Shown: piece by piece, positions 28,920 through 58,500 of the stretch
Numbering within the stretch: position 1 is the first letter of the stretch
How the letters are laid out: every line of letters starts with the position of its first letter
Virus record (IMG/VR): IMGVR_UViG_3300018432_000001
Coordinates: 1 to 64,000 of that record
DNA length: 64,000 nt
DNA from: a virus
Strand: one strand, 5' to 3'
Translations under genes and position numbers: made by a program
Notes under the pieces: model-generated
Databases searched by the model: none
Told to the model about the DNA's origin: nothing
Seen by the model: the letters and a program-made list of their open reading frames with translations, nothing else

Positions 28920-28949
28920 GCCGCCGGTGCACCTCCGTGCATCGGCGGC
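28920..28949 (-). terminator. 12-bp hairpin with CACCTCCGTG apex
   Basis: GCCGCCGGTGCA...TGCATCGGCGGC with one G-T pair, followed on the minus strand by TTTCG. Its apex resembles the CACCCCCGTG apex of the 43-53 kb hairpins. Confidence 0.65.
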
Positions 28950-29077
28950 AATAACCGACAATAAGGCAGCAAAGCCTCATCATCGGAAAATTGTGGCTTC
29001 TTTCAGATTCGGGTTGCGACTTGCCGTGTTGACATTCGGGAGCATTCCCGCAGCACCGGGCGTCCTTCCCCCTTCCA

Positions 29078-31793: not shown

Positions 31794-31860
31794 AGGGTGT
31801 CCTTCCGTGAGTGTTCACCGCAGGTGCCCGACCCGAAGGCCGGGCAGCCACGGAGATCAC

Positions 31861-32481
31861 TCACTCCTCGTTGCGCGGAAGAAGCGTGAACGATCGGTGC
31901 TCGTCGATGTCGGCGACGTACATGGTCTGCGTCGACCGGTTGCGAACCGCGATCTGGTACTTGCCCGCAGGCCAGTCGGTCTGTGACGCGATGTTCCCGA
32001 CCGCGTACATGGCCGCCTCGTACCGCTGCGCGGCGATCTGCTCGGCCTCGCTGTCCCGGCGCGGGATGTCGGCCTCGTCCAGGACGACCTCGAACTGGAC
32101 CCCCCGCACCGGGAGGACCCCGATCGTGAACCCCATGGTGCCGGTGACCGGGGCGGCGTGCGAGCGGATGTCGACGGAGTACCAGTTCTCCTCGGGGCGC
32201 GCCTTCGGCGCTCTGGAGACCCGGTCGGATGTCACGCTCGTGCGGCGGCGCGGCCTGGTGCCCTCCTCGTCCTTGATCTTGACGCCGGTTGCGGTGCGCA
32301 CGACGATCCAGCCCTCGTGCTCGCGCTTCTCGCCCACGGGGGCGGCGGCCATGTCGATGTCGGTGCCGTTGAGGGTGACCCTCGTGCTGGTGGTGGTCGA
32401 CCATTCAGGGCCGACCGTCAGGGGCCCGTTGGCGACCAGGCCTCGGGAGTTGCCGCCGATCGTGTCGTAGATGCGGGTCAT
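31861..32481 (-). CDS. Hypothetical beta-rich protein, 206 aa
   Basis: Not recognised. ATG at 32481 (MTRIYDTIGGNSRGLVANG). Strand-rich N-terminal domain (TSTRVTLNGTDIDMAAAPVG; GWIVVRTATGVKIK), basic linker, then an alpha/beta end. 2 bases after the previous stop. Confidence 0.6.
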   Translation of the reverse strand: MTRIYDTIGGNSRGLVANGPLTVGPEWSTTTSTRVTLNGTDIDMAAAPVGEKREHEGWIVVRTATGVKIKDEEGTRPRRRTSVTSDRVSRAPKARPEENWYSVDIRSHAAPVTGTMGFTIGVLPVRGVQFEVVLDEADIPRRDSEAEQIAAQRYEAAMYAVGNIASQTDWPAGKYQIAVRNRSTQTMYVADIDEHRSFTLLPRNEE

Positions 32482-35301: not shown

Positions 35302-35335
35302 GGGAATGTCTCCTTGTCGTAGCGGATTCGGCGAG

Positions 35336-35361
35336 CGCACCCCGAGCCGGGGCGGGGTGCG
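35336..35361 (-). terminator. 9-bp hairpin
   Basis: CGCACCCCG-8 nt-CGGGGTGCG, 13 bases after the stop at 35374. Confidence 0.6.
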
Positions 35362-35373
35362 TCACCGGGACCG

Positions 35374-35904
35374 CTACGCCTGCGGTCCGGGAATGTCGCG
35401 GGCTTCAAACCACGCGGTCAGGGTCTCGGTGCCCCAGTTGATGGCGACCATCCTGGCGGCGCCACTCAGGTAGGCCTCGGCCACGTAGTCGAGCCTGAGC
35501 ATCTGCGCGCATCGCTGCTTGTACTCCTTCAGGGCCTGCGCATCCGTCTTTCCCCACGGCACCGGGTTCTCGAACGCGCTGGTGAGGCGCATGTAGATCT
35601 CGTCGTCGAACGGGTCGGTCATGACCTCAGGCAGGTGCGAGGCCTCGCACAGCGACAGCACCTTCTTCATCGACCGCGCCTGCAACAGGCACTGGCGGAT
35701 CGAGTTGTCGACCAGGGTGTTCATGCGGTCCTGCCAGAACTCCTCGGTGTCCCACTCGTGGTAGTTGTTGATCGACTCCGTGAGGTGTGTGAGCAGCCAG
35801 AGCCACCAGGACCGTTCGCCCGCGTGGTTCTCGCCCTCAGGCCAGAACCCGTGCGAGGTGATGTGCGCTTCGGCCGCGACGTAATCGAATGCGGGTGAGG
35901 TCAT
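35374..35904 (-). CDS. Hypothetical helical protein, 176 aa
   Basis: Not recognised. ATG at 35904. Tryptophan-rich start (GERSWWLWLLTHLTESINNYH) and helices onward; cytosolic. Confidence 0.6.
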   Translation of the reverse strand: MTSPAFDYVAAEAHITSHGFWPEGENHAGERSWWLWLLTHLTESINNYHEWDTEEFWQDRMNTLVDNSIRQCLLQARSMKKVLSLCEASHLPEVMTDPFDDEIYMRLTSAFENPVPWGKTDAQALKEYKQRCAQMLRLDYVAEAYLSGAARMVAINWGTETLTAWFEARDIPGPQA

Positions 35905-43200: not shown

Positions 43201-43242
43201 CTGCGGTTCTTCCCTTCGCTTAGTTCCACAGCGTGGGACCAG

Positions 43243-43252
43243 CACCCCCGTG
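43243..43252 (-). repeat. CACCCCCGTG hairpin, copy 1
   Basis: Apex of a hairpin with arms GACCAG/CTGGTC in the 71-base gap upstream of the 323-aa gene. On the transcribed strand the loop is GGGG. Confidence 0.65.
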
Positions 43253-43271
43253 CCTGGTCACCGCTGAAGGA

Positions 43272-43883
43272 CTACGCCTTGGGGTGGTGCGACTCCCCGT
43301 CCTGGCGGATCGGTTCGTGCGGTTCATCCCGAATGCACGCGGCCGACCGCTCGTCGTACACGCTGAATCCGTCGATGCGGGGCTCGTACTGGACGCGGCG
43401 TCCGCAGTGGCGGCACTCCCACGTAGCCGGGTGGCCGCCGGACGCGATCAAGTCGAGCCTGGGTTCGTGGTCCGGGAAGTACTGCTTCACGGTGAGGTAC
43501 CCGCCGTGGTGCTCGGGCTCGCCGGTGTTCGCCGACCGCTCCCGGTTGATGACTCCCGCCGGGTAGTAGCACCGCTGATAGTGGTGGTAGACGTGTCCCA
43601 TCCACGCCTCGGAGCACACCAGTTTCTGCGCCGCGATCAGCTCGGCCGCCTTGGCGCGCACCTCCTCGGGCACGTTCTCGCCCTCGGCCGCGTACTTGAT
43701 CTGCATGTACGCGTCCTCGTCCCAGCGGTTACGCCGCTTGACGTCGACCTCGTACGAGTACCGCAGGTTCACGTGCCCCGGCGGACTCGCGTAGCCGCCC
43801 ATGCCCTGCCCGTCATCGATGATCCGGTGACGCTCTCGCCGGTCGCTCGTGACCGCCTCGATCACAACCGTTCTCTTACCCAT
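43272..43883 (-). CDS. Hypothetical zinc-containing protein, 203 aa
   Basis: Not recognised. ATG at 43883 (MGKRTVVIEAVTSDRRE). Has ATWECRHCGRRVQYEPRID late (CxxC) and many aromatic residues. An upstream leader carries the 20-bp element. Confidence 0.6.
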   Translation of the reverse strand: MGKRTVVIEAVTSDRRERHRIIDDGQGMGGYASPPGHVNLRYSYEVDVKRRNRWDEDAYMQIKYAAEGENVPEEVRAKAAELIAAQKLVCSEAWMGHVYHHYQRCYYPAGVINRERSANTGEPEHHGGYLTVKQYFPDHEPRLDLIASGGHPATWECRHCGRRVQYEPRIDGFSVYDERSAACIRDEPHEPIRQDGESHHPKA

Positions 43884-43899
43884 ACACCCGTCACTCCTC

Positions 43900-43919
43900 T
43901 TGCGAATAGGTCTACAGCG
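43900..43919 (-). repeat. 20-bp leader element, variant copy
   Basis: CGAATAGGTCTACAGCGGAC, a near match of the exact repeat at 49700 and 51376. It is followed by a perfect hairpin (43923-43941). Confidence 0.55.
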
Positions 43920-43922
43920 GAC

Positions 43923-43941
43923 GGCCGGGCGATGCCCGGCC
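43923..43941 (-). terminator. Perfect 8-bp hairpin
   Basis: GGCCGGGC-GAT-GCCCGGCC just after the stop at 43954. Confidence 0.6.
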
Positions 43942-43953
43942 CCCACTGAGGGC

Positions 43954-44520
43954 CTACTCGACGTAGTCACCTGCGCCGCCCTTGGTGACGTCGAAGACGT
44001 ACACCCACTGCGGATAGCCGGTCGCGCGCCCGGCCACCGACCGAAACGCCGCGCCCTTGCGGTTCATGGACCGCTCGGCCCACTCGGTCCAGTCGAACAG
44101 GTCCCCGATCGCGTTGTTGGAGAGGTTGCCCCAACTGGTGAACCCGCGACGCGTCCCGTCCCAGGTGGCGAGGTGGTCCAGCAAGGAACCCTTCCCCAGA
44201 TCCTCGGGACTGGCGAACTGGTCGCGGCAGAACGTCTCGTTCGATTCCCACCGGCCTTTGAAGCCGCCCGCGTTCATCCATCGGATGACCGCCGAGAACG
44301 GATGCGTGTCATCCGCGCGGCGCCACGCGTGCGCGGCGTCGATGCCGTCCCTGCCGTGGGTCTCCTCCAGCTTGACCGCGAGCGGATGCGGGACGTTGTC
44401 CCACATGCTCGACGTCAGCGTCGGGTTCTCCTCCTGCGCCAGGGCGAACGACAGCTGCCGACCCGACAGCTCGGTCACGTACTGCCGCTTCCACAGCTCG
44501 GTCCTGTATGGATCTTCCAT
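43954..44520 (-). CDS. Possible ArdA-like antirestriction protein, 188 aa
   Basis: ATG at 44520 after GAGGAAGGAG. The second half runs GGFKGRWESNETFCRDQF..LLDHLATWDG..DLFDWTEWAERSM..WVYVFDV, echoing the C-terminal half of ArdA proteins (..GsWeS.e.F.....l..yiDw.a.a.el.....vYvF). ArdA mimics DNA to block type I restriction. The 167-aa gene at 45334 has the same layout. Both are tentative; acidity is moderate. Confidence 0.35.
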   Translation of the reverse strand: MEDPYRTELWKRQYVTELSGRQLSFALAQEENPTLTSSMWDNVPHPLAVKLEETHGRDGIDAAHAWRRADDTHPFSAVIRWMNAGGFKGRWESNETFCRDQFASPEDLGKGSLLDHLATWDGTRRGFTSWGNLSNNAIGDLFDWTEWAERSMNRKGAAFRSVAGRATGYPQWVYVFDVTKGGAGDYVE

Positions 44521-44522
44521 GC

Positions 44523-44909
44523 CTACGCTCCTTCCTCGGTGATCTCGTCGCACTCCGGCTCGAAGCACGGCACCGCCCACACCTCGACGCCGCGCGTCAC
44601 GTGCGAGAGCTTGCCGCCCCCCATCGGGGAACCTTTCGGGCCGTACTTGCTGGCCCCGCTCTCCATGGCGTCGACGATCTTCTCGATCCCGGGCGTGGAG
44701 ATGCGCGAGTCGTAGAGCTGGCCCGCGTTGCGGAACGCGCGCTCTTCCTCGCCGGTCTGGGCGATCCACGCGAAGTGGTAGAAGTGCCCGGCCACGATGT
44801 TCACCGCGTCGTACACGGTCACGCCGTGGGCGACGTTGTCGGGGTTGGGCATCTCGCCCACCTCGCTGTACCCGACGACCCAGTGATAGGCGGTATAGAT
44901 ACGGGTCAT
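44523..44909 (-). CDS. Hypothetical protein, 128 aa
   Basis: Not recognised. ATG at 44909 (MTRIYTAYHWVVGYSEVG). Short strands and helices; EVWAVPCFEPECDEITEE at the end has two cysteines. 2 bases before the ArdA-like start. Confidence 0.6.
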   Translation of the reverse strand: MTRIYTAYHWVVGYSEVGEMPNPDNVAHGVTVYDAVNIVAGHFYHFAWIAQTGEEERAFRNAGQLYDSRISTPGIEKIVDAMESGASKYGPKGSPMGGGKLSHVTRGVEVWAVPCFEPECDEITEEGA

Positions 44910-44916
44910 CCGGTCC

Positions 44917-45210
44917 TCAGCCTCCGTACCCGGGCATGTCGAGCCCGTCCGTCATCTCCCACGGCTCGGGCGCGAAGGACCCGGCTTCGACGTCCTCGTC
45001 CGCCTCGCCGCGTGCCTCGGCCAGCTCGTGCCGCAGGGTCGCGACCTCGCGCTCCAGCTCCCGGATGCGGTCGGCCTCGTGTGTCTGGCTCGCCAGCCGC
45101 ACCACTGCCACCTCGTCCTCGTTATACGGGTCGAAGTCCTCGCCGGGGATGAACACCGGCGACCCGATCGGGTCCTCGCCGACCGCCTGCCGATACGTCA
45201 GTCGATCCAC
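44917..45210 (-). CDS. Hypothetical protein with coiled-coil centre, 97 aa
   Basis: Not recognised. GTG at 45210 is 8 bases after AAAGG; the GTG at 45219 overlaps that site. RIRELEREVATLRHELAEARGE is a coiled coil. First gene behind the palindromic region at 45251-45285. Confidence 0.62.
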   Translation of the reverse strand: MDRLTYRQAVGEDPIGSPVFIPGEDFDPYNEDEVAVVRLASQTHEADRIRELEREVATLRHELAEARGEADEDVEAGSFAPEPWEMTDGLDMPGYGG

Positions 45211-45250
45211 TGTGCACACCTTTCATCGATCAACTTGAATGCGAAGTATC

Positions 45251-45285
45251 GTTGCTGTTCAACAGCAACAATCAATCGAACGATT
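45251..45285 (-). promoter_or_regulatory. AT-rich operator/promoter region with two palindromes
   Basis: GTTGCTGTTCAACAGCAAC (45251-45269) is a perfect 19-bp palindrome. AATCGAACGATT (45274-45285) is a second one. They sit in an AT-rich stretch 40-75 bases before GTG 45210; on the minus strand TTGATT, 19 bases, GATACT could be a promoter overlapping the first palindrome. Confidence 0.5.
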
Positions 45286-45307
45286 TCTATATCACTGGGG
45301 GTCGGAA

Positions 45308-45317
45308 CACCACCGTG
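45308..45317 (-). repeat. Hairpin with CACCACCGTG apex
   Basis: Stem GGGGGTCGG/CCCGACCCCC flanks an apex that differs by one base from CACCCCCGTG. Located 17 bases after the stop at 45334. Confidence 0.5.
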
Positions 45318-45333
45318 CCCGACCCCCATCTCC

Positions 45334-45837
45334 TTACAATCCGGTGAGCCTCGCGAAGTTGTCGAAGGCGTACACCACCGGCGACCCCGAGGGATTGACG
45401 CTCGCGAGGAACGCGAAGTGCGCCGGGAATCGGTCCTCGTGTTCGACCGCGTACCCCACCGACTCCCAGATCGGGCTCACGTCGCTGATTTCCATGTTCG
45501 GGAACCCGAGCTGTTCGCGCTGGCCCCACTTGTCGAACCAGCGCTGAAACTCCCCGGCGAACTGGCGCTCGGCGAACTCGGCCATGTCGGTGAAATCCCC
45601 GAGATAACCGCCCGCCAGCATCCACCGCACGGTGTGCACCGCAGTCGCACCCGAACCCCTGTTGCCGCGCTCGATGTACACCAGCGCAGCGCTGGCCGCG
45701 AGCGGCCCGTGCTGTTCGAGCAGTTCCATCACCGCCGGATGCGCGCCCTCCCACTGAGGGCCCGCTTCCCAGTGCTCGCCGAGCACTTCCTGGAACATCT
45801 TCTTGGACAGTGTGATCACGTCTTTGGCTACTTCCAT
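45334..45837 (-). CDS. Possible ArdA-like antirestriction protein, 167 aa
   Basis: ATG at 45837. Region YLGDFTDMAEFAERQFAGEF..ISDVSPIWESVGYAVEHED..VVYAFDNF resembles the tail of ArdA and of the 188-aa neighbour in spacing of 'F.D..E' and the terminal VYxFD. Low confidence; the N-terminal half is helical. Confidence 0.35.
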   Translation of the reverse strand: MEVAKDVITLSKKMFQEVLGEHWEAGPQWEGAHPAVMELLEQHGPLAASAALVYIERGNRGSGATAVHTVRWMLAGGYLGDFTDMAEFAERQFAGEFQRWFDKWGQREQLGFPNMEISDVSPIWESVGYAVEHEDRFPAHFAFLASVNPSGSPVVYAFDNFARLTGL

Positions 45838-45850
45838 GACATCCCTTCCT

Positions 45851-46162
45851 CTACCCTTCGGTGAGTTCCTGCAAGACCAGCGCGGACACCGCCAGCGCGG
45901 CCCGCGTCATCGCCTCGGACATGTCGCGGATGCCGACGCCGTACGTCGGAGCCGTCGTCGGCAGGCTCACGACCTTCCACGCGTCGTGGTAGCGCATGCC
46001 CGCCGTGGGCCCGGTCTCGCGCTTCTGGAGCTCGAACGACCAGAGGTCACCCTTCTCGTCCGTGTCCAGGAAGATGCACGCCCGCACCTCCGCGAACGAC
46101 GCATCGATGATCTCGACCGGGTCGTTCATGGTGTCGTCGTCCACTCGGTACAGCTGTGCCAT
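45851..46162 (-). CDS. Hypothetical protein, 103 aa
   Basis: Not recognised. ATG at 46162 after GAAGGAG (MAQLYRVDDDTMNDPVE). A strand-rich first half, then a helix GIRDMSEAMTRAALAVSALVL. Confidence 0.6.
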   Translation of the reverse strand: MAQLYRVDDDTMNDPVEIIDASFAEVRACIFLDTDEKGDLWSFELQKRETGPTAGMRYHDAWKVVSLPTTAPTYGVGIRDMSEAMTRAALAVSALVLQELTEG

Positions 46163-46205
46163 TCGTGCTCCTTCGCTCATCGGCTAACACCACGGCCGAG
46201 ACCAG

Positions 46206-46215
46206 CACCCCCGTG
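46206..46215 (-). repeat. CACCCCCGTG hairpin, copy 2
   Basis: Its arms and apex are identical to copy 1 over 17 bases or more (GACCAG..CTGGTC). Located in the 72-base gap between 46162 and 46235. Confidence 0.65.
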
Positions 46216-46234
46216 CCTGGTCACGACCGAACTC

Positions 46235-46648
46235 CTAGCCGTCGGCCTTGATCGCCTTCCCGTCCGCGACCCCGTCGCGATACGCGCTTGCCACATGGGA
46301 GGCGACCTGCTCGGCCGCCTTCCACTCGTGCTGGTACATCGGCGCACTGGGGTTGACGCCCGCGTTCCTCACCTGCTCCCGCATCGGCCCCGGAATGAGG
46401 TCACCCGTGAGGCCTGCGCCCTCGACCACACCGCACAGGAACGCCACCACGCACAGCGCCCCGGTGGTCCGATCGTCGTAGGTCAGGGCCCGCTGATCGG
46501 AGATGTACCGGACCCCGTGACCGAGGTTCGTGCCGATCGAGAACCACGGTGTGCCCGTGACCTTCTCGACTGCGCGGATCACCGCCTCCACCTCATCGCG
46601 GTGCCACTCGAAGCGCTCCCTATCCGGGTCCTTCTTGACGCCGCTCAC
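46235..46648 (-). CDS. Hypothetical protein, 137 aa
   Basis: Not recognised. GTG at 46648 (MSGVKKDPDRERFEWHRDE) overlaps the next stop upstream (GTGA). A central hydrophobic helix TTGALCVVAFLCGVVEGAGL could be membrane-associated. Confidence 0.6.
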   Translation of the reverse strand: MSGVKKDPDRERFEWHRDEVEAVIRAVEKVTGTPWFSIGTNLGHGVRYISDQRALTYDDRTTGALCVVAFLCGVVEGAGLTGDLIPGPMREQVRNAGVNPSAPMYQHEWKAAEQVASHVASAYRDGVADGKAIKADG

Positions 46649-46926
46649 GCGCTCCCCTTCCCCTGCTGCTGTTCGATGACGCGTTCGGCCGCCTTCTCGC
46701 ACCGCTTGCACAGCCGCTGGTCGAACAGCAGGGCCTTGTACCGGACCTGCTTCAGGGCTTCCTCGACCGTGGCGAAGACCTCGGCGCCATAGCCCAGGTT
46801 CGTACCCCCGGGCCGGTAGGAGAGGGCCGCGCACTTCATGACCGGCTCGGTCTCGCGGTCTTCGGGTACCTCCTGAATGTGGGTCACTCGCGGGCTGTGC
46901 CTGAGCCGGTAGCTTCTCTTGCCCAT
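46645..46926 (-). CDS. Hypothetical protein with CxxC, 93 aa
   Basis: Not recognised. Basic start (MGKRSYRLRHSPRVTHIQEV) and RLCKRCEKAAERVIEQQQ tail. ATG at 46926 after GGAAGGAG. The leader upstream carries a variant of the 20-bp element and hairpin copy 3. Confidence 0.6.
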   Translation of the reverse strand: MGKRSYRLRHSPRVTHIQEVPEDRETEPVMKCAALSYRPGGTNLGYGAEVFATVEEALKQVRYKALLFDQRLCKRCEKAAERVIEQQQGKGSA

Positions 46927-46939
46927 GCCTTACTCCTTC

Positions 46940-46959
46940 CGAATAGACACTCAGCGCGG
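46940..46959 (-). repeat. 20-bp leader element, variant copy
   Basis: CGAATAGACACTCAGCGCGG, directly before hairpin copy 3 and 14-33 bases upstream of ATG 46926. Confidence 0.55.
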
Positions 46960-46966
46960 GACCAGG

Positions 46967-46976
46967 CACCCCCGTG
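46967..46976 (-). repeat. CACCCCCGTG hairpin, copy 3
   Basis: Arms GGACCAGG/CCTGGTC flank the apex; sits between the stop at 46997 and the start at 46926. Confidence 0.65.
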
Positions 46977-46996
46977 CCCTGGTCACCACTGATCGC

Positions 46997-47407
46997 CTAC
47001 TGTCCGGGCCTGCTCAGCGCGGCGAGCCTGCGCATCTCCGCGATGCCCGCGTCACGTCCGGCTTTCAACCCGGGCATGTAGTCGGAGATGTTGGCTACGT
47101 CGTGCCACTCCTCGAACCGCTCCCGGTACCGGCCAAGCGTCGGGTTGTCGTACGTCTTGGTGATCGTGCCGCCTTCCAGCCGCTGCACCGAGTACGCGAA
47201 GGACGCCGGACCCGACAGGTAGGCGTCCTCGTTCTCGTCCTCGGTGTCCTCCGGCCCGACGTAGACCATCTCGGTGAAGTCGTACACCTCAACCCGCCAC
47301 TGGCAGGTTTCGACGCCGGTCCCGTTGCCGTCGGCCGCAAGCCACGCCTGCGTCCCGTCGACAACCTCGCCGTCCGGGTTGAGGTACCAGGTTTCCGTTG
47401 CACTCAT
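46997..47407 (-). CDS. Hypothetical protein, 136 aa
   Basis: Not recognised. ATG at 47407 (MSATETWYLNPDGEVVDG). Beta-rich start, helical and basic end (RYRERFEEWHDV; AGIAEMRRLAAL). Confidence 0.6.
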   Translation of the reverse strand: MSATETWYLNPDGEVVDGTQAWLAADGNGTGVETCQWRVEVYDFTEMVYVGPEDTEDENEDAYLSGPASFAYSVQRLEGGTITKTYDNPTLGRYRERFEEWHDVANISDYMPGLKAGRDAGIAEMRRLAALSRPGQ

Positions 47408-47450
47408 GGGATTCTCTTGCACTCCTATCGATTCGCTAGGAATTTGGGGG

Positions 47451-47822
47451 TTAGAGGCACGCCTCCACCCGTTCGAGCGCGACACCCATCGCCGCCTCGG
47501 CCGCGCCGCTGGTGTAGTGCTTGCTGCGGTACGCCGCCATCTCCTCGGCCGGAATGACACCACCCGCGAGGTTGTGCACGGGCTTCCCCCGCCCGTAGTA
47601 GCGGCTCGCTTCGAAGGTGAACGTCGGCCACACCGACTCGTCGCCCGCCTCGTGCGCCGCGATCGTCTCCTCGCTCGCCCACCCAGTGATCTGGATGTGC
47701 ACGAGGTCGCCGTCGACCTTGTAGATCCGGTTCTCACGCCCGACCTTCCAGCCCGGGAACTCCCGCAGCTCGTCCGAGGAACGCTCGGCAGTCTCCATCG
47801 TCAGCTTGAGCGTGCTACCCAC
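47451..47822 (-). CDS. Hypothetical protein, 123 aa
   Basis: Not recognised. GTG at 47822 after GAAGGGG. Mixed domain with IQITGWASEET and a helical end; starts 8 bases inside the previous gene. Confidence 0.6.
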   Translation of the reverse strand: MGSTLKLTMETAERSSDELREFPGWKVGRENRIYKVDGDLVHIQITGWASEETIAAHEAGDESVWPTFTFEASRYYGRGKPVHNLAGGVIPAEEMAAYRSKHYTSGAAEAAMGVALERVEACL

Positions 47823-48258
47823 GCGGCGCCCCCTTCAGGTTCGCGTACTCGACCCAGGTGTAACCCGACTCGACCCGGTAGGGCCGAATCAGGTTCAGCA
47901 CCTGCTGGAACTTCTTGATCGGCATGTCCCCGTAGTCCACGAGGATGCGCATTTGGGCGTACCCGCCGGAGTCGACGAACCCAGCCTCGACCCCGTCCTC
48001 GGTGAACCGCTGCAACGCCTCGACCAGGGCGATCTCGCGGCGACCGGCCGCACCCTCCCACCCGTTGAACGTGACGTCGTAGAACGGCCAGGTCGCCGTC
48101 CACTCCAGCGTCAGGCACCCGCGCCGCTCCGGAATCGACAGCGTCCGCTGCGGGAACGCCTTGATCAGCGCCGCGAACGACGCCAGCTCGTTCTCGTCCG
48201 TGGACGGGAGCGAATCGAGCAGTTCGTTGAACGCTTCCCGCGTGTCCTTCTTACCCAA
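47815..48258 (-). CDS. Hypothetical protein, 147 aa, TTG start
   Basis: TTG at 48258 has AGGAGG 7 bases upstream, so it is a convincing start. C-terminal half GYAQMRILVDYGDMPIKKFQQVLNLIRPYR matches the 187-aa protein at 51434 (GYAQVVIQFGYADMTPDELETVLEAICHYR), so the two are paralogues. Function unknown. Confidence 0.68.
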   Translation of the reverse strand: MGKKDTREAFNELLDSLPSTDENELASFAALIKAFPQRTLSIPERRGCLTLEWTATWPFYDVTFNGWEGAAGRREIALVEALQRFTEDGVEAGFVDSGGYAQMRILVDYGDMPIKKFQQVLNLIRPYRVESGYTWVEYANLKGAPRG

Positions 48259-48323
48259 ACCGAGCCTCCTAATGTGAGGAATCTACAGCCTGTGTGGTTC
48301 GACAGACCCCACGAACCGGCCCG

Positions 48324-48333
48324 CACCCCCGTG
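48324..48333 (-). repeat. CACCCCCGTG hairpin, copy 4
   Basis: Arms built from CGCAC/GTGCG; in the 111-base gap between 48258 and 48370. Confidence 0.6.
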
Positions 48334-48369
48334 CGCGGACCGACCATGGGCAACCAGCGAACAACCCGG

Positions 48370-48723
48370 TTACGCCTTCGACGCCCGCTCCTGCCGCTCC
48401 TTCACCGCCTCGGCATCCCGGCGTCCCTCGGTCTCGGCCTCACTGTCGAACCGGCCCGAGGCGTGAAGGTATTCGAGCACCGCTCGCGTGTCCGGATCGG
48501 ACAGGTCGACGCCGAACACGGCCGCGACCCCGCCCAGATAGGACAGGGCCGACGCCGCACCCGGACCCCCGAGCCAGAGCCGCCCGCGAAACCCGCCGTG
48601 GTTCGGGATGTAGTGCTTGCCCTTCCCGTCGCCGGGATTGTTGATCTGCAACCAGTCCCGGTTGCCGGTCGCCTCGCATACCGGCAACAGCACCTGGTGC
48701 ACTCTCGCTGATGTCAACCGCAT
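48370..48723 (-). CDS. Hypothetical protein, 117 aa
   Basis: Not recognised. ATG at 48723. Glycine-rich centre (NNPGDGKGKHYIPNHGGFRGRLWLGGPGAAS) and charged helical tail. Confidence 0.6.
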   Translation of the reverse strand: MRLTSARVHQVLLPVCEATGNRDWLQINNPGDGKGKHYIPNHGGFRGRLWLGGPGAASALSYLGGVAAVFGVDLSDPDTRAVLEYLHASGRFDSEAETEGRRDAEAVKERQERASKA

Positions 48724-48740
48724 CGCTCACCTCATGTTCT

Positions 48741-48959
48741 CTACTTGCTGGTGACGCCGTACTCGGCGATCTCCTCGGGACGCAGCCCCGCGAGCCACGC
48801 ATCGCACTCGGCCTCGAACGCGTCCTGTTCGAACGGAATCGTGGCGTGCCCGACGCCGTCAGTGGTGGTCCAGACGTTGTTGGTGGCGACGGCGTACTCG
48901 CCGCCCTCCCACGTGAAGGTCACTCCCCGACACGAGTACGACAGTTCCTCGTCTCCCAT
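48741..48959 (-). CDS. Hypothetical acidic protein, 72 aa
   Basis: Not recognised. ATG at 48959 (MGDEELSYSCRGVTFTWEGG), strands then a helix. Confidence 0.6.
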   Translation of the reverse strand: MGDEELSYSCRGVTFTWEGGEYAVATNNVWTTTDGVGHATIPFEQDAFEAECDAWLAGLRPEEIAEYGVTSK

Positions 48960-48970
48960 ATGCGTGCCTC

Positions 48971-49486
48971 CTACTCGTCGTCCTCTTCGCTGTCATCGCC
49001 GCTGTCGTCCTCGTAGTAGGACTTCACGGCCGCGAGGATCGCCGCCGCTTCCGCTCGGCCCTTCCACGACCCGGTCCCGTCCCAGATGAAGTAGTGACTC
49101 AGCTCCTCGGGCACCGCGCGGAGCAGCGCGGTCTTTCCCAGCGGCTCGGCGAGCACCCCCAGGGTGTGCACCTCGTTGATGATCGACAGGCCCCACCCGT
49201 TCGCGAACTTGTGGATCTCGTGAGCGCCCTTGTCGTCAACCCACGTGTCGGACGGCTTGAACTCCGCACCCATGCTGGGTCTCCCTTCGGTATAACCGGT
49301 GACCTTCTCGCTCGGCAGGATCTCGCGGATCTTGTCGATGACTAGTTGCTCTCCCTCTTCATGCCCGGATGCCCACCCCTGGTCGAACCCGGCGGCCCAC
49401 TTCTGGTTTCTGACAGTGGCGCCGACCTCGTACCCGTCCACGAACTCGCGCAGGGCATCGAGCATTTCCTGATTCCGGATCTTCAC
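48971..49486 (-). CDS. Hypothetical protein, 171 aa
   Basis: Not recognised. GTG at 49486 (MKIRNQEMLDALREFVDGY). Helical start, mixed middle, and a C-terminal acidic tail (EDDSGDDSEEDDE). Confidence 0.6.
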   Translation of the reverse strand: MKIRNQEMLDALREFVDGYEVGATVRNQKWAAGFDQGWASGHEEGEQLVIDKIREILPSEKVTGYTEGRPSMGAEFKPSDTWVDDKGAHEIHKFANGWGLSIINEVHTLGVLAEPLGKTALLRAVPEELSHYFIWDGTGSWKGRAEAAAILAAVKSYYEDDSGDDSEEDDE

Positions 49487-49508
49487 CGGCGCCCTTTCCT
49501 TCCTCCTG

Positions 49509-49685
49509 CTAGTCGACCGCCGTGTGCACGACCGGCTTCCCGTCGAGCTCGGCCAGCGTCACGCTGATACGCGGGTACTTCTTGCGGCCCTTGTACAGCT
49601 CCCGCGCTTTCACGCTCGCCTCATACGAGGACTCGGCCTCGATCTCGTGTCGCTTGCCCTCCACGAACGCGATGTATCCGTTCAC
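49509..49685 (-). CDS. Conserved small phage protein, 58 aa
   Basis: NGYIAFVEGKRHEIEAESSYEASVKARELYKGRKKYPRISVTLAELDGKPVVHTAVD resembles a family very common in phages of many hosts, of unknown function (nGYiaF..GKr.Ei.A.tsy.A...A...fk...k...i.v.LaE..G..v.h...d). GTG at 49685 after GAGAGGA. Confidence 0.72.
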   Translation of the reverse strand: MNGYIAFVEGKRHEIEAESSYEASVKARELYKGRKKYPRISVTLAELDGKPVVHTAVD

Positions 49686-49699
49686 GCGAACCGTCCTCT

Positions 49700-49719
49700 C
49701 GAATAGACCTTCAGCGGAC
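49700..49719 (-). repeat. 20-bp leader element, exact copy
   Basis: CGAATAGACCTTCAGCGGAC, identical to 51376-51395; about 15 bases upstream of GTG 49685 and followed by an imperfect hairpin at 49721-49743. Confidence 0.7.
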
Positions 49720-49756
49720 GCGCCTGCGCCATCGGCGCTGGCGGACCACTGGACAC

Positions 49757-49906
49757 CTACTCGCGTGCCCGTACCCGGGCTGCGAACTCCCACCACCGCT
49801 GATTGCGGCGCAACCTTTGCGCCGCAACGAGCCGGGCGATATCCGCATCCGAGAGCGGGAGCGCCACCGTGATGCCTTCCATCTCGATCACTTCACCCAC
49901 TGGCAT
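49757..49906 (-). CDS. Small hypothetical protein, 49 aa
   Basis: ATG at 49906 (MPVGEVIEMEGITVALPLS) lies 14 bases inside the 182-aa gene. Helical, basic end (RRNQRWWEFAARVRARE). Function unknown; the start is moderately sure. Confidence 0.5.
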   Translation of the reverse strand: MPVGEVIEMEGITVALPLSDADIARLVAAQRLRRNQRWWEFAARVRARE

Positions 49907-50441
49907 GCACCGCACCCTCGCGAACCCTCCTTTCGAGCGCGCACAGCACACCACCGACCGCGTCCCGGATGGGCTGGTGCTTGTAGTTGTGCTCCCGCGC
50001 CTGGGCCAGGGACTTACGCCACTCGTTGAGCGCGTCCTGGTAGACCCCGTACGCGAACAACCCGTGCGTGTCCTCTCGGTAGTCCTCACGCTTGGGCGCT
50101 TCCACGGGACCCCGATACGCGAGGTCACGCGCCGACTTCGGGTTGAACCGCCCGGCCGGAGCAACCCGGGTGTACAGGTGCTGGTTCACACCGAGCGTGG
50201 GAACGTCACTGAGGACGTGCCCCCACAGGTACTCGACCGTGACCGGTTTCCCCGGCCAGTACGACGCCATGACGACCGCCCGCTTGCCGTACCCGTGATG
50301 CTTCACGGTGAACGTCGCCTCCCACGTCTTCCGCTCGCGCGGGTTCACGTTGCAGACGTCGCGGTACGACTCATCGAACACCGATTCCTCCACTACCCAA
50401 TCGCCTTGCGACCAGGTATTGAAGTAGTACAAAACGCCCAT
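49893..50441 (-). CDS. Hypothetical protein, 182 aa
   Basis: Not recognised. ATG at 50441 (MGVLYYFNTWSQGDWVVEES). Beta-rich first half, helical end (YQDALNEWRKSLAQAREHNYK). Confidence 0.6.
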   Translation of the reverse strand: MGVLYYFNTWSQGDWVVEESVFDESYRDVCNVNPRERKTWEATFTVKHHGYGKRAVVMASYWPGKPVTVEYLWGHVLSDVPTLGVNQHLYTRVAPAGRFNPKSARDLAYRGPVEAPKREDYREDTHGLFAYGVYQDALNEWRKSLAQAREHNYKHQPIRDAVGGVLCALERRVREGAVHASG

Positions 50442-50461
50442 GCCGTTGCCTCTCCTCTCGC

Positions 50462-50941
50462 TTAGCTGTGCGCGTACACCACGCCGTCCTCACCCGCGTA
50501 CAGGTGGAACCCGCCGTACGGCTGGCAGTGGGCGGTGAGCCGGTCACCGACCTCACCCATGCCCCGGTCCCAGAACCCGGCGCCCGCCCTGTTGCGGGTG
50601 AGCACGAAATCGTGACCGATCTGCCCGGCCCCGACCGCGACGACATCAACCCACATCGCGTGGCAGAAATCGGCGACCTCCCGCGTGAACTCCACAGCGA
50701 CCGCTGCGTCGATGTCCTCGCGTTGGCACATCGCACTGAGGGACGCGCCCTCTACGTCCGCTGACGAGGACCACAGGGCCGTATCCAGACCCGTCCACGC
50801 CACGTCCGCGACGTAGTCGAAATCCAGATCCCACTGCGAGCACGCCACGCATGCGGCATTGTCGACCTCGCTGGTGTGCTCAGCCCACCACGCGTCGACC
50901 GCCGCATGCACCAGGTCGTAACCCGTTACCGCACCCGTCAC
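50462..50941 (-). CDS. Conserved phage protein (RNxxGAGFWDRG family), 159 aa
   Basis: FVLTRNRAGAGFWDRGMGEVGDRLT at about 110-135 and GGFHLYAGEDGVVYAHS at the end are the signature of a family common in phages and prophages (dF..TRNghGaGFwDrg.g..G..Lt..a...g...ly.GdDG.iy). The role is unknown. GTG at 50941. Confidence 0.75.
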   Translation of the reverse strand: MTGAVTGYDLVHAAVDAWWAEHTSEVDNAACVACSQWDLDFDYVADVAWTGLDTALWSSSADVEGASLSAMCQREDIDAAVAVEFTREVADFCHAMWVDVVAVGAGQIGHDFVLTRNRAGAGFWDRGMGEVGDRLTAHCQPYGGFHLYAGEDGVVYAHS

Positions 50942-51360
50942 CGGCCCTCCTCAGTCTTCCGTTCGGGCATCGGGCCGCGCTCATCACTGAACGTCATGAC
51001 CGTGCTGATGCACCGCACGCCCGCGACCTGCCGACTCGTCACCTCGTGACCGAACCCGGGGTAGCGGATGCGCACCCGGAACGGGCTGTCTTGCCCGGGG
51101 TGGTGGTGGATGTACTCGACCACGGCAACGGCGGTGTTCCGCTCCCACTGCCCCAGGTCACGCAGGTACTGGTCCCACGTGATCTCAAGAGGATGACCGG
51201 ACGAGGCGAAATCCACCAGCACCCGAGCATCCTCAATCGGCAAGCCCGTGATCTGGGCGTACTCATGCGCCAGATCCGCCAGCGCAGGCCAACCCAGACG
51301 CTTCGCACCGTCGACCACTCGCGTCCCTTCCCACGTCGCATCCGTGAGCTTTTCCCGCAT
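50938..51360 (-). CDS. Hypothetical protein, 140 aa
   Basis: Not recognised. ATG at 51360 (MREKLTDATWEGTRVVDGA). Helical first half with GLPIEDARVLVDFASSG, beta end. GTGA overlap with the 159-aa gene. Confidence 0.6.
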   Translation of the reverse strand: MREKLTDATWEGTRVVDGAKRLGWPALADLAHEYAQITGLPIEDARVLVDFASSGHPLEITWDQYLRDLGQWERNTAVAVVEYIHHHPGQDSPFRVRIRYPGFGHEVTSRQVAGVRCISTVMTFSDERGPMPERKTEEGR

Positions 51361-51375
51361 GCACCCTCCTCTCCT

Positions 51376-51395
51376 CGAATAGACCTTCAGCGGAC
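51376..51395 (-). repeat. 20-bp leader element, exact copy
   Basis: CGAATAGACCTTCAGCGGAC, followed by hairpin copy 5; 16-35 bases upstream of ATG 51360. Confidence 0.7.
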
Positions 51396-51401
51396 CCGCC
51401 G

Positions 51402-51411
51402 CACCCCCGTG
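51402..51411 (-). repeat. CACCCCCGTG hairpin, copy 5
   Basis: Arms CGCAC/GTGCG; in the 73-base gap after the stop at 51434. Confidence 0.65.
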
Positions 51412-51433
51412 CGCTGGCGAACCACTGTGACGC

Positions 51434-51997
51434 CTACTCCTCTTCGACCTTGACCGCGTCCTCGTACAGGACCGAGCCCATGCCTTCCTTGCGGTAGTGG
51501 CAGATGGCCTCCAGCACCGTCTCCAGTTCATCGGGCGTCATGTCCGCGTACCCGAACTGGATCACGACCTGCGCATACCCGCGCTCATCGCGGTAGTACG
51601 CCTCCACTGTCGGGTTCGTGACGTCGCCCTCGTAGTAGGCGAACTTGGCCGCCTCGATCAGTTCGTCCTCGTTCTCACCGGCCCACCCCACGAACCCGTT
51701 GAACCGCAGCTCCTCGGCGTTGTCGACCCACTCCATGACCAGACCGGGCGGGCACGGGAACGCCTCGATCATCTCGGTTTTCGCTTTCGTGTCCGGGTGC
51801 TGCTCGTGAGCGATGGCCTTGACCACCGAATCGGGCACGCCCAGCTCGGACAGGACCCGCTCGGCCGTGTCCTCCTCGTCTAGCTCAGCCTCCCCGCGCA
51901 GGTACTCGTCCGCGAGCAGCCGGTACACCAGCTCCGCAGCACTCCGCGCGTTCTGCCGCTGCGGGTCGTTCCCCAACCCGCTCCACACGTCTGCCAT
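51434..51997 (-). CDS. Hypothetical protein, 187 aa (paralogue of 47815-48258)
   Basis: The C-terminal half pairs with the 147-aa protein at 47.8 kb. The N-terminal 70 residues are an extra helical, acidic part (AELDEEDTAERVLSELGVPDSV). ATG at 51997. Confidence 0.66.
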   Translation of the reverse strand: MADVWSGLGNDPQRQNARSAAELVYRLLADEYLRGEAELDEEDTAERVLSELGVPDSVVKAIAHEQHPDTKAKTEMIEAFPCPPGLVMEWVDNAEELRFNGFVGWAGENEDELIEAAKFAYYEGDVTNPTVEAYYRDERGYAQVVIQFGYADMTPDELETVLEAICHYRKEGMGSVLYEDAVKVEEE

Positions 51998-52010
51998 CTG
52001 CGCCTCCTCG

Positions 52011-52370
52011 TTAACTTGTCAACAGCTTGTCGGCCTCGTCCAGCGCGACCTCCCACGCCAGCATCTTGATCAGCTCACCGGGCATCGCAGGACGCAACCG
52101 GTGATTCTCGATCACCCCCGAGCACCGCGCCATCGCCTCGGCGTCGTCGTCCGGGGCGAACACCTCGACCTCGAACCGGTACATCCCGCCAGGGGTCACC
52201 CCGCGACGGGTCCCGAACCCGATGTTGTCGGCCGCGAACACCGTCACCGCGCACCACCCGCCGTTAGCGAGCGCGTACTTGCGCGTCTGCGCCCACGCCT
52301 CCCACATCCCGTTGAACTTCTCGTCCCGGGTGGTGCGCCCGATCTCGGCCCCGTCGTGCAACTGGCTCAC
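52011..52370 (-). CDS. Hypothetical protein, 119 aa
   Basis: Not recognised. GTG at 52370 (MSQLHDGAEIGRTTRDE) overlaps the previous stop (GTGA). Strand-rich middle (GGMYRFEVEVFAPDDDAE), helical end. Confidence 0.6.
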   Translation of the reverse strand: MSQLHDGAEIGRTTRDEKFNGMWEAWAQTRKYALANGGWCAVTVFAADNIGFGTRRGVTPGGMYRFEVEVFAPDDDAEAMARCSGVIENHRLRPAMPGELIKMLAWEVALDEADKLLTS

Positions 52371-52855
52371 TCGCTCACCTCCTCGACGCCGACCGCCGCG
52401 AACAGCTCGGACCGCAACCCGGCAGAGACGCCGTCGGGGTGCAAGCTGTACTCGAACCGCTGATTTTGCTCGTACTGGTACTGCTCGTAGGCGTACACCC
52501 ACACGGTTCCCAGCGGCTGCGACTCCCAGCCGGGAGACGTGGACGCCTCCCAGAGAGAATCCGGGTACACGTTCCAACCCTTGAGCGCGTCCCCGAGAGC
52601 GACCGCAAGCGTGTCGCACACGCAGCACCCGTCCTTTTCGGAGCCGCACTCGCAGTCCTTCTCGACCAGTTCCCAGACGACCGCGAGCGTGCCCAGCTTC
52701 TCGGGCTCGTCCGCGTCCTCTTCCCAGCGGGCGAACTCGGTCCGGTACATGCGCACCACGGGCAGCCCGGTCTCACCCGCGCGGATCTCGCGGTGCTCCT
52801 CGGGCGTGATCTTGTCGAACTCCTCATCAACCCGGAGCTCTTTCAACTCCCACAT
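52367..52855 (-). CDS. Cys-rich hypothetical protein, 162 aa
   Basis: ATG at 52855 (MWELKELRVDEEFDKITPEE). VEKDCECGSEKDGCCVCDTLAVAL holds five cysteines within 14 residues, a likely metal cluster. The tail is tyrosine/glutamine-rich (AYEQYQYEQNQRFEYS). Confidence 0.64.
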   Translation of the reverse strand: MWELKELRVDEEFDKITPEEHREIRAGETGLPVVRMYRTEFARWEEDADEPEKLGTLAVVWELVEKDCECGSEKDGCCVCDTLAVALGDALKGWNVYPDSLWEASTSPGWESQPLGTVWVYAYEQYQYEQNQRFEYSLHPDGVSAGLRSELFAAVGVEEVSE

Positions 52856-52909
52856 GTGAGACCTCCTCTCAAATCAGTAGTGTCCTAGAAGGTTGTGACA
52901 ACCCGCCCC

Positions 52910-52919
52910 CACCCCCGTG
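52910..52919 (-). repeat. CACCCCCGTG hairpin, copy 6
   Basis: Arms CCCAC/GTGGG with outer CCCG/CGGG pairing; between 52855 and 52942. Confidence 0.6.
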
Positions 52920-52941
52920 GGAGACGGGCTCTCGGAACCCG

Positions 52942-53070
52942 CTACAACCAGCAGTGACCCGCCTTCCGGAACCACCGCGTATGACGCCACAGACCCCAAC
53001 CCGTCCGCGCCCGGAACCGCACCAGCCACCCGCCGCACTGCTTGCAGCGGCGCCGCTCCCACCGCTTCAC
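52942..53070 (-). CDS. Very small basic CxxC protein, 42 aa
   Basis: GTG at 53070 overlaps the stop of the 87-aa gene (GTGA), a strong sign of coupling. It reads KRWERRRCKQCGGWLVRFRA, then Arg/Trp-rich, ending HCWL. One CxxC and a late HxC-like pair could hold zinc; high charge suits nucleic-acid binding. Confidence 0.6.
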   Translation of the reverse strand: MKRWERRRCKQCGGWLVRFRARTGWGLWRHTRWFRKAGHCWL

Positions 53071-53330
53071 GACCCGGCCCCCGCTCTCGGCAGCTCCACC
53101 AGGTACTCGGTCAACTGCCCATACCCGCTGTTGTACGTCGTGTCACGGGAAGTCCCGAACACCCGGACCATGACCAGCTTCCCGGCCCCGACCACCGCGC
53201 CAGCCTCCACCAGCACCTCACGCCACGGCCGCTCCTGGCCCTCCTCCTCGTCGCCGGACTCGCCCCGGTAGATCACCCGACCCACCAGCGAACCCCGGTC
53301 ACGGTGCAACCGCACCAACTCCCGACCCAT
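53067..53330 (-). CDS. Hypothetical protein, 87 aa
   Basis: Not recognised. ATG at 53330 after GAGAGGAGG (MGRELVRLHRDRGSLVGRVI). Beta-rich. Confidence 0.6.
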   Translation of the reverse strand: MGRELVRLHRDRGSLVGRVIYRGESGDEEEGQERPWREVLVEAGAVVGAGKLVMVRVFGTSRDTTYNSGYGQLTEYLVELPRAGAGS

Positions 53331-53375
53331 CACGGACCTCCTCTCACGTTGGGAACCTTGCGGCAACCCGGCACG

Positions 53376-53385
53376 CACCCCCGTG
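53376..53385 (-). repeat. CACCCCCGTG hairpin, copy 7
   Basis: Arms CCGGCACGCAC/GTGCG..TGCCGG; best-paired member, in the 127-base gap after the stop at 53458. Confidence 0.65.
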
Positions 53386-53457
53386 CGCCTGCCGGGCACC
53401 GTAAAGCGCCCTACTTGCGGACCCGCGCACCTTCGTACGCAGGGTTAACGACCCGCT

Positions 53458-55986: not shown

Positions 55987-56928
55987 TCACTTTTCGACTT
56001 TCGCGAAGGTTGCGAGGTCCTTCAGGAATTGTCCGAATTCTCCGGACTTGTAACGCTTGGGCAACCCTTGCGTCAAGCTGGTCACTTCACTAGGCGAGTA
56101 CAGGTCAATATCGACCATTTCGCCCGGTTCGATGCGTTGGGCAAGTTCCCGTAGCATGTCGCTACGGTTGTCGCCTGCCAGCTTGCCGCGCTTGGCTTGG
56201 ACGTCGTGAACCCGTGCGAGCATGACGAGCATGTCGCGCGGGATTGCGAGCGTGTACCGGTTCGCGACCGGTTCGCCAGCGCTGGCGGGTTCGGTTGCGT
56301 CTCGCATGACGTTCGCGAGCGCTTCCCTTGCCGTCGGGTCGCTTTTGTACATAAGGTGCTTATTGCGTGCCGTGAGCGGTTTGTCCGTTCCGGCACCGTG
56401 CGGCATGACGTACTCAATGCCGCTGGTAGACACGTGCTTACGCTTGGATGATGCCTTGCGATCGATAGGCGACGGCTTATCCATGTACGCGTCCGAAGAG
56501 AACGCATACGTAGCCGCTGAATAGTAGCCAGCTTTAGCCGCCCGGTCCCGCGCTTCCGTCGAAATGTCCTTATCGTCCCTATGCGGGAGATTGGGACCTT
56601 CCGACAGTTCGGCTACATCCATAACCACGGGCGAAACCTTACGGAATCGCAGCGGAATGAACTTGCCAACTACGCGGTTGTCACCCGTACCGAACACTTT
56701 CGGTTTCTGCTCTTCATAGGCAGCGTGAGCCGCCATGTGTTCCGCACGGTCATCACTGCGACGCTGCGACACTCGCGCTTGCGATTCCGCACGGTCCTCG
56801 TAAAACTTTTTGACCGCGCGTTGTTTCGCTTGCGCTGGCGTCTCCCCCTTGCGAGGGTTAGCCGCTTTCGATGCACCGGGAATCCTATAGACCTCATAGT
56901 CACGATCCGTCACAAACGGTTCAGACAT
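55987..56928 (-). CDS. 313-aa protein of lower GC beside the candidate origin
   Basis: Not recognised. ATG at 56928 after GGAGATATC (MSEPFVTDRDYEVYRIPGAS). The first 90 residues are basic and helical (KQRAVKKFYEDRAESQARV), the middle has KPSPIDRKASSKRKHVSTS, and the end is helical with an acidic patch (RIEPGEMVDIDLYSPSEV). Base use is less GC-rich than its neighbours and it sits alone, with its own terminator, next to the TCCACA array. An origin-binding or initiator role is attractive but unproven. Confidence 0.6.
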   Translation of the reverse strand: MSEPFVTDRDYEVYRIPGASKAANPRKGETPAQAKQRAVKKFYEDRAESQARVSQRRSDDRAEHMAAHAAYEEQKPKVFGTGDNRVVGKFIPLRFRKVSPVVMDVAELSEGPNLPHRDDKDISTEARDRAAKAGYYSAATYAFSSDAYMDKPSPIDRKASSKRKHVSTSGIEYVMPHGAGTDKPLTARNKHLMYKSDPTAREALANVMRDATEPASAGEPVANRYTLAIPRDMLVMLARVHDVQAKRGKLAGDNRSDMLRELAQRIEPGEMVDIDLYSPSEVTSLTQGLPKRYKSGEFGQFLKDLATFAKVEK

Positions 56929-57130
56929 GATGATATCTCCTCAATAGTCCCATTTCGCGCAACTAGTCCCCTTCGCATATAGCTAGCCATGGCACAGTTC
57001 GCCCCCAAGGGAGCGCCCAATGCGGGCGGGATTCGTCGCGCGTCTGCGCTTCAAAACACACTGTTCGGTTAGGAAAAAACAGTCGCCGCCCGGGTTCCGC
57101 GTTCCGTGTGGTTCGCGTCGCTCGGAAGCG

Positions 57131-57148
57131 ATGACATAACTATGTCAT
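57131..57148. promoter_or_regulatory. 18-bp palindrome
   Basis: ATGACATA-AC-TATGTCAT, perfect, in an otherwise GC-rich stretch; a likely dimeric-protein binding site. Confidence 0.55.
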
Positions 57149-57498
57149 AGGCCAGCGCGCCCAATTTTGGGGGTCCTGACCTGGGGATTCATTTTGTCCG
57201 TTTTGCGTTTCGCCTGGTCACGGGCTTGTGGGAGGAAATGGGGTCAGCAGTCAAGAGGGTATGACAGCGCTTGCCACAAAGGTCACGGTTTGGTAAAGCC
57301 TGCGTATGCCCTGGTCAGCGGCTCAACATTTCCGAAATTCGCACGGTATCGACATTGTGGACAGTCAAGTGGAAAGCGCTTGCTTTACACAGTGGATGGT
57401 CACAGTAGTCACGCTAGGCAACACGCGTCACAAGCGGCCAGCGCGGGCAGTGATCGCGCGTTGTGACGGGATGGGCTTAGGGGGACGAGACGATGCGG

Positions 57499-57702
57499 AT
57501 GAGGCATTGAGGGTGTGAGCTGGGAGGATGCAGCGTTTCGCCTGGTAGATTCGTCGCACTGTCGCAAGTGGAGCCGAGAGCGTCCGAAGTGGACACGATG
57601 GGGTGGGAGTGGCGTATGCCTGCCAGCGCGTCAGATGATGCCAATGAGGCATTGTGGCGCTGGCCTGCGACGATACGCGTTTCCCCTGGTAGATTGCTCG
57701 CG
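57499..57702. repeat. Imperfect repeat pair, 145 bp apart
   Basis: ATGAGGCATTG at 57499 and 57644, each followed 24 bases later by CGTTTC(G/C)CCTGGTAGATT (57534 and 57679). Both distances are 145, so a unit of that length was duplicated; TAGATT could be a -10 box in each. Confidence 0.6.
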
Positions 57703-58084
57703 ACCGGTTCGGGTAGGCCGCTAGGGGAGGCGTAGCGCGCTGGCAGTGGCGCGGCCTAGCCCACGGGTAGGGATGCACGCTGCGAGCGGCGTAGGGAGGC
57801 GTACAGCGGCCTAGGGAGGCAGGTACGCCAGCGCGGCCTAGCCGCTCCCTTCACACGGTGCGCATGTGTGCGCGAATAGCACAGTGCCGCGCTGGCGTCA
57901 AGGGTGAGGCCATGATCGTTATCGTATTGTGATGTCATGCTGGCAAGCAATGGAGCGCTCCCAAGAATGGAGCCGCATGTCAAAGGCACATTCCATGCAT
58001 ACCGAGTATCAACACATTGTTTACCGAATGCCACACAGTGAGACGCCAGCTACCAAACGCAAGCGCATCGCTACACAGAGCTAG

Positions 58085-58310: not shown

Positions 58311-58473
58311 GTGGACGCCACCCCCTTAAAAGATAGGGGGGTCGTGAAATTTTCCAGGATTCGAGCGTATCACATGAGGATCGCTCGTGAATGCAGGGTT
58401 TTGCCATTGTCGTGATGGTGTTGTGCCTGGTGTGGCCCGAGTTTGTTTTGTAGGTAGTGGAACCTTCTCGGTG

Positions 58474-58500
58474 GCCTCTCGTGCAGCATGCGAGAGGCCT
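58474..58500 (-). terminator. Perfect 9-bp hairpin
   Basis: GGCCTCTCG-9 nt-CGAGAGGCC, 11 bases after the stop at 58512. Confidence 0.65.

Follow-up and report, generated by a model that had tools for sequence, protein, structure and literature searches.

Intergenic RNA hairpins with covarying arms, a paired stop codon and exchangeable tips in a putative actinophage and its two close relatives

The first 64,000 bases of the 142,477-base viral contig IMGVR_UViG_3300018432_000001 (66% GC; hereafter the window) contain a family of hairpins in the gaps between minus-strand genes, with arms that change in a compensatory manner, a base that includes the stop codon of the upstream gene, and a tip that can be exchanged. 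The pairing kept between divergent copies, together with a strand-specific pattern of arm mismatches, indicates that these hairpins are real folded elements of the sense-strand RNA under selection. The original prediction was built around a 10-mer, CACGGGGGTG, described as the invariant apex of seven intergenic hairpins with differing arms. All seven copies were found exactly where they had been placed, on the gene-sense strand, each at the apex of a hairpin in a gap between minus-strand genes, and the quoted arm sequences were correct. By chance, 0.41 copies would be expected; none of 100 shuffles reached seven, and no further copies were present in the complete contig. The excess of one-mismatch variants over chance was weak (21 versus 12.2 expected, 2/100 shuffles). 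When compared with dinucleotide shuffles, eight of nine tested elements folded clearly better (z of about -2.7 to -6.4), with weak folding seen in the hairpin carrying the 10-mer at 48324 (z = -1.65).

Matches to capsid, portal, tail and tape-measure proteins in PHROGs point to a long-tailed actinophage, and its host is probably Streptomyces-like, as relatives of the major capsid protein in sequenced bacteria reside mainly in Streptomyces genomes. Two close relatives are available in IMG/VR, G001 (138 kb, capsid 98% identical) and G002 (141 kb, capsid 97% identical). Coordinates preceded by A refer to bases 84001-124000 of G001, and those preceded by B to the reverse complement of bases 49001-89000 of G002; both stretches share about 75-92% DNA identity with the window in the hairpin region. 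The main family (frame 1) comprises 14 copies with several different tips, six of them in the window (Table 1) and eight in the relatives (A12124, A13208, A14801, A16200 and A18944; B16186, B19649 and B22187). At its base, stem I pairs the end of the upstream gene (its last codon and the UAG stop) with CUAUUC-like bases; above it are a small internal loop, stem II (CAGUGG/CCGCUG-like), a variable stem III and the tip, which reads GGGG, UUCG, AUC/ACC or GAUG. Copies with GGGG have a bulge of 1-3 nt below the tip. A Shine-Dalgarno sequence follows directly after stem I, and the hairpin fills the entire gap of ~70 nt.

Alignment of the eight GGGG-tipped copies of frame 1 from the three phages showed that 94.0% of cells pair, with 9 of 24 pairs changed on both sides, and gave a covariation score of 0.305 versus 0.144 in shuffled alignments (0/500). 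Sliding the partners by 1-3 columns reduced pairing to 30-40%. Across all fourteen copies, 93.6% of cells were paired, with 9 of 18 pairs and 29 cells doubly changed; the rows are kin by descent and by copying, and these counts do not represent independent events. Arm mismatches provided a second line of evidence, independent of the multiple alignment: over 30 hairpins, scored without favouring wobble pairs, we counted 100 G·T against 26 A·C mismatches (binomial p = 2e-11 if independent), with some noise added by a few arms of a second architecture, frame 2, that were split off-centre. Copies from the window alone gave about 31 G·T versus 7 A·C (p = 1e-4). A DNA palindrome would accumulate both types about equally, and the asymmetry therefore identifies the sense-strand RNA as the thing being kept. 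It argues against a symmetric DNA palindrome or operator, a reading we rejected, as the main reason for conservation. The earlier proposal of a conserved RNA structure is thus backed both by this asymmetry and by covariation among aligned copies from the three phages, with nine pairs changed on both sides. A leader peptide running through the hairpin was rejected, as the reading frame shifts, by eye, between the copies at 43243, 46206 and 46967.

Conservation extends to the very base of the structure. The probability of pairing between the stop codon and the 3' portion of the gap is 0.94-1.0 in frame-1 gaps, compared with 0.15-0.33 after shuffling. Stem I covaries, and its 3' half, a CUA without coding role, is kept as C/U-U-A in 14/14 copies. 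Two hairpins unrelated in sequence show the same arrangement (35302-35373, kept in both relatives, and 31794-31860, with no homologous match in the relatives' stretches searched), and the seven stop-clamped gaps all measure 67-73 nt. When the 45 gaps of such size are taken together, mean stop-codon pairing was 0.30 versus 0.21 in shuffles, making the clamp a trait of a subset of gaps rather than of the whole genome. One could imagine that stem I sets the stop codon beside the next Shine-Dalgarno sequence, so that terminating ribosomes re-initiate on the following gene. Such coupling would agree with the fixed gap length and with the pairing of the stop to bases that immediately precede the Shine-Dalgarno, as seen in every frame-1 copy and in the two unrelated hairpins, but a ribosome in termination occupies the stop plus the next ~12 nt and would melt stem I, the Shine-Dalgarno lies outside the stem and is usable without coupling, and coupling described so far, as far as covered in PMC10666635, mostly operates through overlaps or very short gaps. 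We consider this explanation improbable.

The tip is less constant than the stem. At least four stems that are unrelated to one another end in GCAC-GGGG-GUGC or a closely similar tip (frame 1; the hairpin at 48308-48350; the frame-2 hairpins at 52882 and 53348; and B18650 in G002). The site orthologous to 46206 reads CGCGGGGGTG and TGCGGGGGTG in the relatives, and GGGGGTG persists at three of four orthologous sites next to a 5' arm that changes (CAC, CGC or TGC), with G·U preserving the pairing. At the site orthologous to 53376, G002 carries a UUCG tip. The apex is therefore invariant within this genome, as first described, but not among its relatives, and GGGG is a favoured but replaceable tip. 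The original prediction went on to suggest a protein or anti-termination factor reading the loop. Recurrence of the tip on unrelated stems, and retention of GGGGGTG beside a varying 5' arm, are what one would expect if a phage or host factor (an RNA-binding protein, an anti-terminator or the ribosomal anti-Shine-Dalgarno) bound it and united the hairpins into one regulon; GGGGGUG could possibly pair, with one wobble, with the anti-Shine-Dalgarno CACCUCC. However, frame 1 bears UUCG, AUC and GAUG as well as GGGG, the tip was replaced at one orthologous site, the bulge beneath it varies from 1 to 3 nt, and Pfam revealed no candidate RNA-binding family near the hairpins. A loop reader is thus unsupported, and in our view unlikely.

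These observations suggest, tentatively, that the hairpins are cistron-boundary elements of mRNA that are processed and/or protect 3' ends. They would mark the borders of cistrons in an apparent long polycistronic message of small unknown genes and act after transcription: the message may be cut at the hairpin by a double-strand-specific nuclease of the host RNase III type, and/or the hairpin may serve as a barrier that shields the upstream cistron at its 3' end but keeps the following Shine-Dalgarno sequence free. Neighbouring and often-swapped small genes could in this way be expressed as separate units, with the GGGG tip being a favoured stable cap or a module spread by copying, and not a loop essential for recognition. 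We rank this reading first because selection reaches the distal base stem and the hairpins are not followed by a promoter-like site from which transcription could resume. Early genes of coliphage T7 are separated by RNase III processing sites, likewise long interrupted hairpins located between genes just before the next start. With about 24 interrupted base pairs, compared with the about 20 bp or more of RNase III sites, the stems here would by analogy be long enough for RNase III-type substrates, and their placement resembles that in T7. To our knowledge, the T7 sites have neither a conserved tip nor a paired stop codon. Three points weigh against processing at cistron boundaries. An RNase III-like phage protein was absent from the Pfam families listed, which would leave any cutting to a host enzyme. 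Hairpins without U-tracts are common elsewhere in the genome and need not be special. Actinophage intergenic hairpins of comparable type appear in the literature as terminators (for phiC31 by Ingham, Hunter & Smith 1995, as cited in PMC8355165 and PMC5335608).

The last point brings up what we regard as a possible explanation, following closely on the boundary reading, namely that the hairpins are partial terminators or pause/attenuation sites without poly-U, similar to those in the phiC31 early region, that grade expression along the operon. They are GC-rich stem-loops located ~0-20 nt after stop codons that tend to be retained together with the gene before them; the capsid relatives mentioned above are mainly from Streptomyces; terminators lacking U-tracts are published for phiC31 (cited in PMC8355165 and PMC5335608); and an I-shaped hairpin lowers read-through in vivo in mycobacteria (PMC5335608). 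A canonical intrinsic terminator was rejected, as the U-tract directly after the stem is absent (0-4 T in the 8 nt after the stem, with no run, and 0/7 called terminator-like). In form, the long interrupted stems, the clamped stop codon and the missing U-tract bear out the earlier view that these are more than generic terminators. Mycobacterial polymerase needs a U-tract in vitro, according to work cited in PMC5335608. Covariation out to the distal base also speaks against termination, since stem I would form only after the polymerase had moved on and a terminator would not need it. Finally, only ~20-30 nt separate the hairpin from the start codon, and a simple scan of the 40-56 kb interval returned 0 sigma-70-like promoters, so that full termination would leave the downstream genes without an obvious promoter.

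Hairpin gaps also hold more than their share of mosaic joints. Nine of these gaps contain 15 of 46 homology breakpoints (2.8 expected). Hairpin 43884 is alike in all three phages and followed by a different gene in each, with homology stopping at its 3' edge. The stem includes the stop codon, and for this reason the hairpin tends to be retained with the gene that precedes it. Repeats acting primarily as DNA linkers at which gene cassettes recombine, with the RNA fold being secondary, could account for such a pattern. On the other hand, the strand-specific G·U excess and the compensatory changes call for selection at the RNA level, frame-1 copies are too divergent to offer good homology, and ordinary gene borders hold 16 more breakpoints, implying that gene borders in general are joints. 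This explanation appears very unlikely to us.

The family is narrowly distributed. Searches with a 23-nt tip model (R1) and a frame-1 model (R2) recovered members only in the window phage, G001 and G002, so that the covariance search originally proposed for phages reached the two relatives and no member beyond the three phages; the best outside match of R1 (L026, 25.6 bits) lacked a GGGG loop on inspection. A gapped DNA pattern run against 2.9 million viral contigs likewise returned only these three phages. BLASTN against 50,697 named phages gave a best match at the level of chance (E = 0.9), the same search against plasmids yielded no family member, and searches with the proteins of three genes of the region reached only G001 and G002. 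Many viral contigs contain the 14-mer GGCACGGGGGTGCC, with a single match in each stretch listed, and outside the three phages, GGGG apex sites paired about as often as control apexes. No Rfam family was matched at gathering score, with only unrelated sub-threshold matches (E of 0.9 or worse). So far, the hairpin family appears to be genus-level, limited to this phage and its two close relatives, with capsid-matched distant relatives mostly lacking coverage of the homologous region.

Table 1 Hairpins and related elements in the window
Feature	Coordinates	Strand	Remarks
Frame-1 hairpin, GGGG tip	43218..43277	-	UAG stop of 43272-43883 gene in base; R2 72.8 bits
Frame-1 hairpin, AUC tip, no GGGG	43904..43959 (hairpin 43884)	-	Conserved in G001 and G002
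Frame-1 hairpin, GGGG tip	46182..46240	-	Orthologs with CGC/TGC 5' arm
Frame-1 hairpin, GGGG tip	46941..47002	-	10-mer at 46967
GCAC-GGGG-GUGC tip on unrelated stem	48308..48350	-	Same site in both relatives; z -1.65
Frame-1 hairpin, GAUG-type tip	49701..49762	-	R2 52.6 bits
Frame-1 hairpin, GGGG tip	51377..51439	-	Stem III differs in sequence; three compensatory double changes
Frame-2 hairpin (AGCCCG...CGGGUU), GGGG tip	52882..52948	-	Tip kept in both relatives
Frame-2 hairpin, GGGG tip	53348..53414	-	G002 orthologous site has UUCG tip
Whole-gap hairpin, unrelated sequence	35317..35379	-	Upstream UAG pairs with CUA before Shine-Dalgarno; recovered by frame-1 model
Whole-gap hairpin, unrelated sequence	31794..31866	-	Upstream UGA paired in base
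Separate repeat family, GGTG loop	45298..45330	-	Outside GGGG family
Hairpin 28930, U-trailed	28920..28950	-	Loop not conserved in relatives; rejected as member

Two sites initially listed as variants of the family did not hold up. In both relatives, the loop of the hairpin at 28930 (CACGGAGGTG) reads GGAU; the hairpin is trailed by the U-rich CUUUCG and looks like an ordinary terminator. The site at 45308 belongs to a separate dispersed repeat at 45211-45333, composed of a near-perfect hairpin, GGGGGTCGGGCACGGTGGTGTCCCGACCCCC, beside a conserved AT-rich stretch, TATAGAAATCGTTCGAT. This repeat is also found at A17531, A16900 and B20452, and as its 3' half only at A21676, B24869 and B15526, as if the element had moved or been cut back. 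On the plus strand at 60565, a strong hairpin with the apex GACGGAGGTC and a GGAG loop occupies the space between the opposite-strand genes 115 (-) and 116 (+); it is unchanged in G001 and differs by one base in G002, and was left out of the family because, despite its resemblance to the tip, this conservation gives no covariation. Across the whole contig, hairpins of -14 kcal/mol or better occur in 34 same-strand gaps (45-260 nt); most of them lack a U-tract, and U-less intergenic hairpins are thus general in this phage.

Ten gene products of the hairpin region, those scanned first, matched no Pfam family, and of ten compared with PHROGs only one had a match, to a family of unknown function. 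Elsewhere, an RtcB tRNA-splicing ligase (PF01139, E = 6e-119) is encoded within positions 1-30183 of the window, not pinned to one gene, while other parts of the contig encode an RlaP RNA-repair nucleotidyltransferase and a HIT/DcpS-like protein; together these perhaps form an RNA-repair set directed against host anticodon nucleases. A stretch of 2 kb without a confident gene call (56434-58511), with lower GC content and a turn in GC skew, is possibly an origin or a main promoter region.

Intergenic hairpins of actinophages are already known, both as terminators without U-tracts (phiC31) and as start-associated repeats (cluster K mycobacteriophages and Microbacterium phages). As with the terminators of the phiC31 early region, in so far as these are described through PMC8355165 and PMC5335608, the hairpins studied here are intergenic, GC-rich repeats of an actinophage without poly-U, bearing in mind that the host is only predicted; they differ in having a covarying stop-codon clamp, and a repeated GGGG tip, and in the lack of a promoter-like site in the region scanned. 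The I-shaped, U-less hairpin within the alr-groEL1 operon of M. tuberculosis, a proposed pause/attenuation element (PMC5335608), is also similar, but is a single structure with no repeat family. The extended start-associated sequences (ESAS) of cluster K are genus-restricted intergenic inverted repeats (PMC3203893, PMC11373665), and similar repeats occur in Microbacterium phage clusters EF, EG and EC (PMC7302621). Like ESAS, the present hairpins are inverted repeats in one orientation, placed just before the starts of non-structural genes and common to different gene families. For ESAS arms, however, the authors found no support for RNA pairing (PMC3203893), and a later study placed SigA-like promoters within them (PMC3203893, PMC11373665), whereas here pairing is kept with double changes and a simple scan found no SigA-like -35/-10 site. 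The 13-bp start-associated sequence (SAS) GGGATAGGAGCCC had two matches with two mismatches (1.9 expected), none at hairpins. With no SAS motif at the ribosome-binding site, no SigA-like site and RNA pairing kept, membership of the SAS/ESAS group was rejected. Our literature search returned no repeat family that combines demonstrable covariation with a stop codon inside the stem and interchangeable tips.

Actinophage genomes are rich in small unknown genes split by repeats of unknown role, including SAS/ESAS and the repeats of clusters EC/EG. The hairpins described here offer a case in which such a repeat is demonstrably RNA-structured, with compensatory changes, a stop codon in the stem, swappable tips and a position at mosaic joints. 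A more far-reaching idea, which we think unlikely, is that the GGGG tip, its bulged stem and the clamp together form a genus-specific post-transcriptional code, in which a tip-bound factor would decide between cutting, termination and read-through at each border. If so, newly acquired small genes would join a shared regulon by landing beside a hairpin, and the binder would be one phage-made or host factor, or the anti-Shine-Dalgarno of the ribosome. More broadly, the family lends itself well to telling termination, processing and loop recognition apart, and offers a testable model for how freshly exchanged genes may be fitted into a phage operon.

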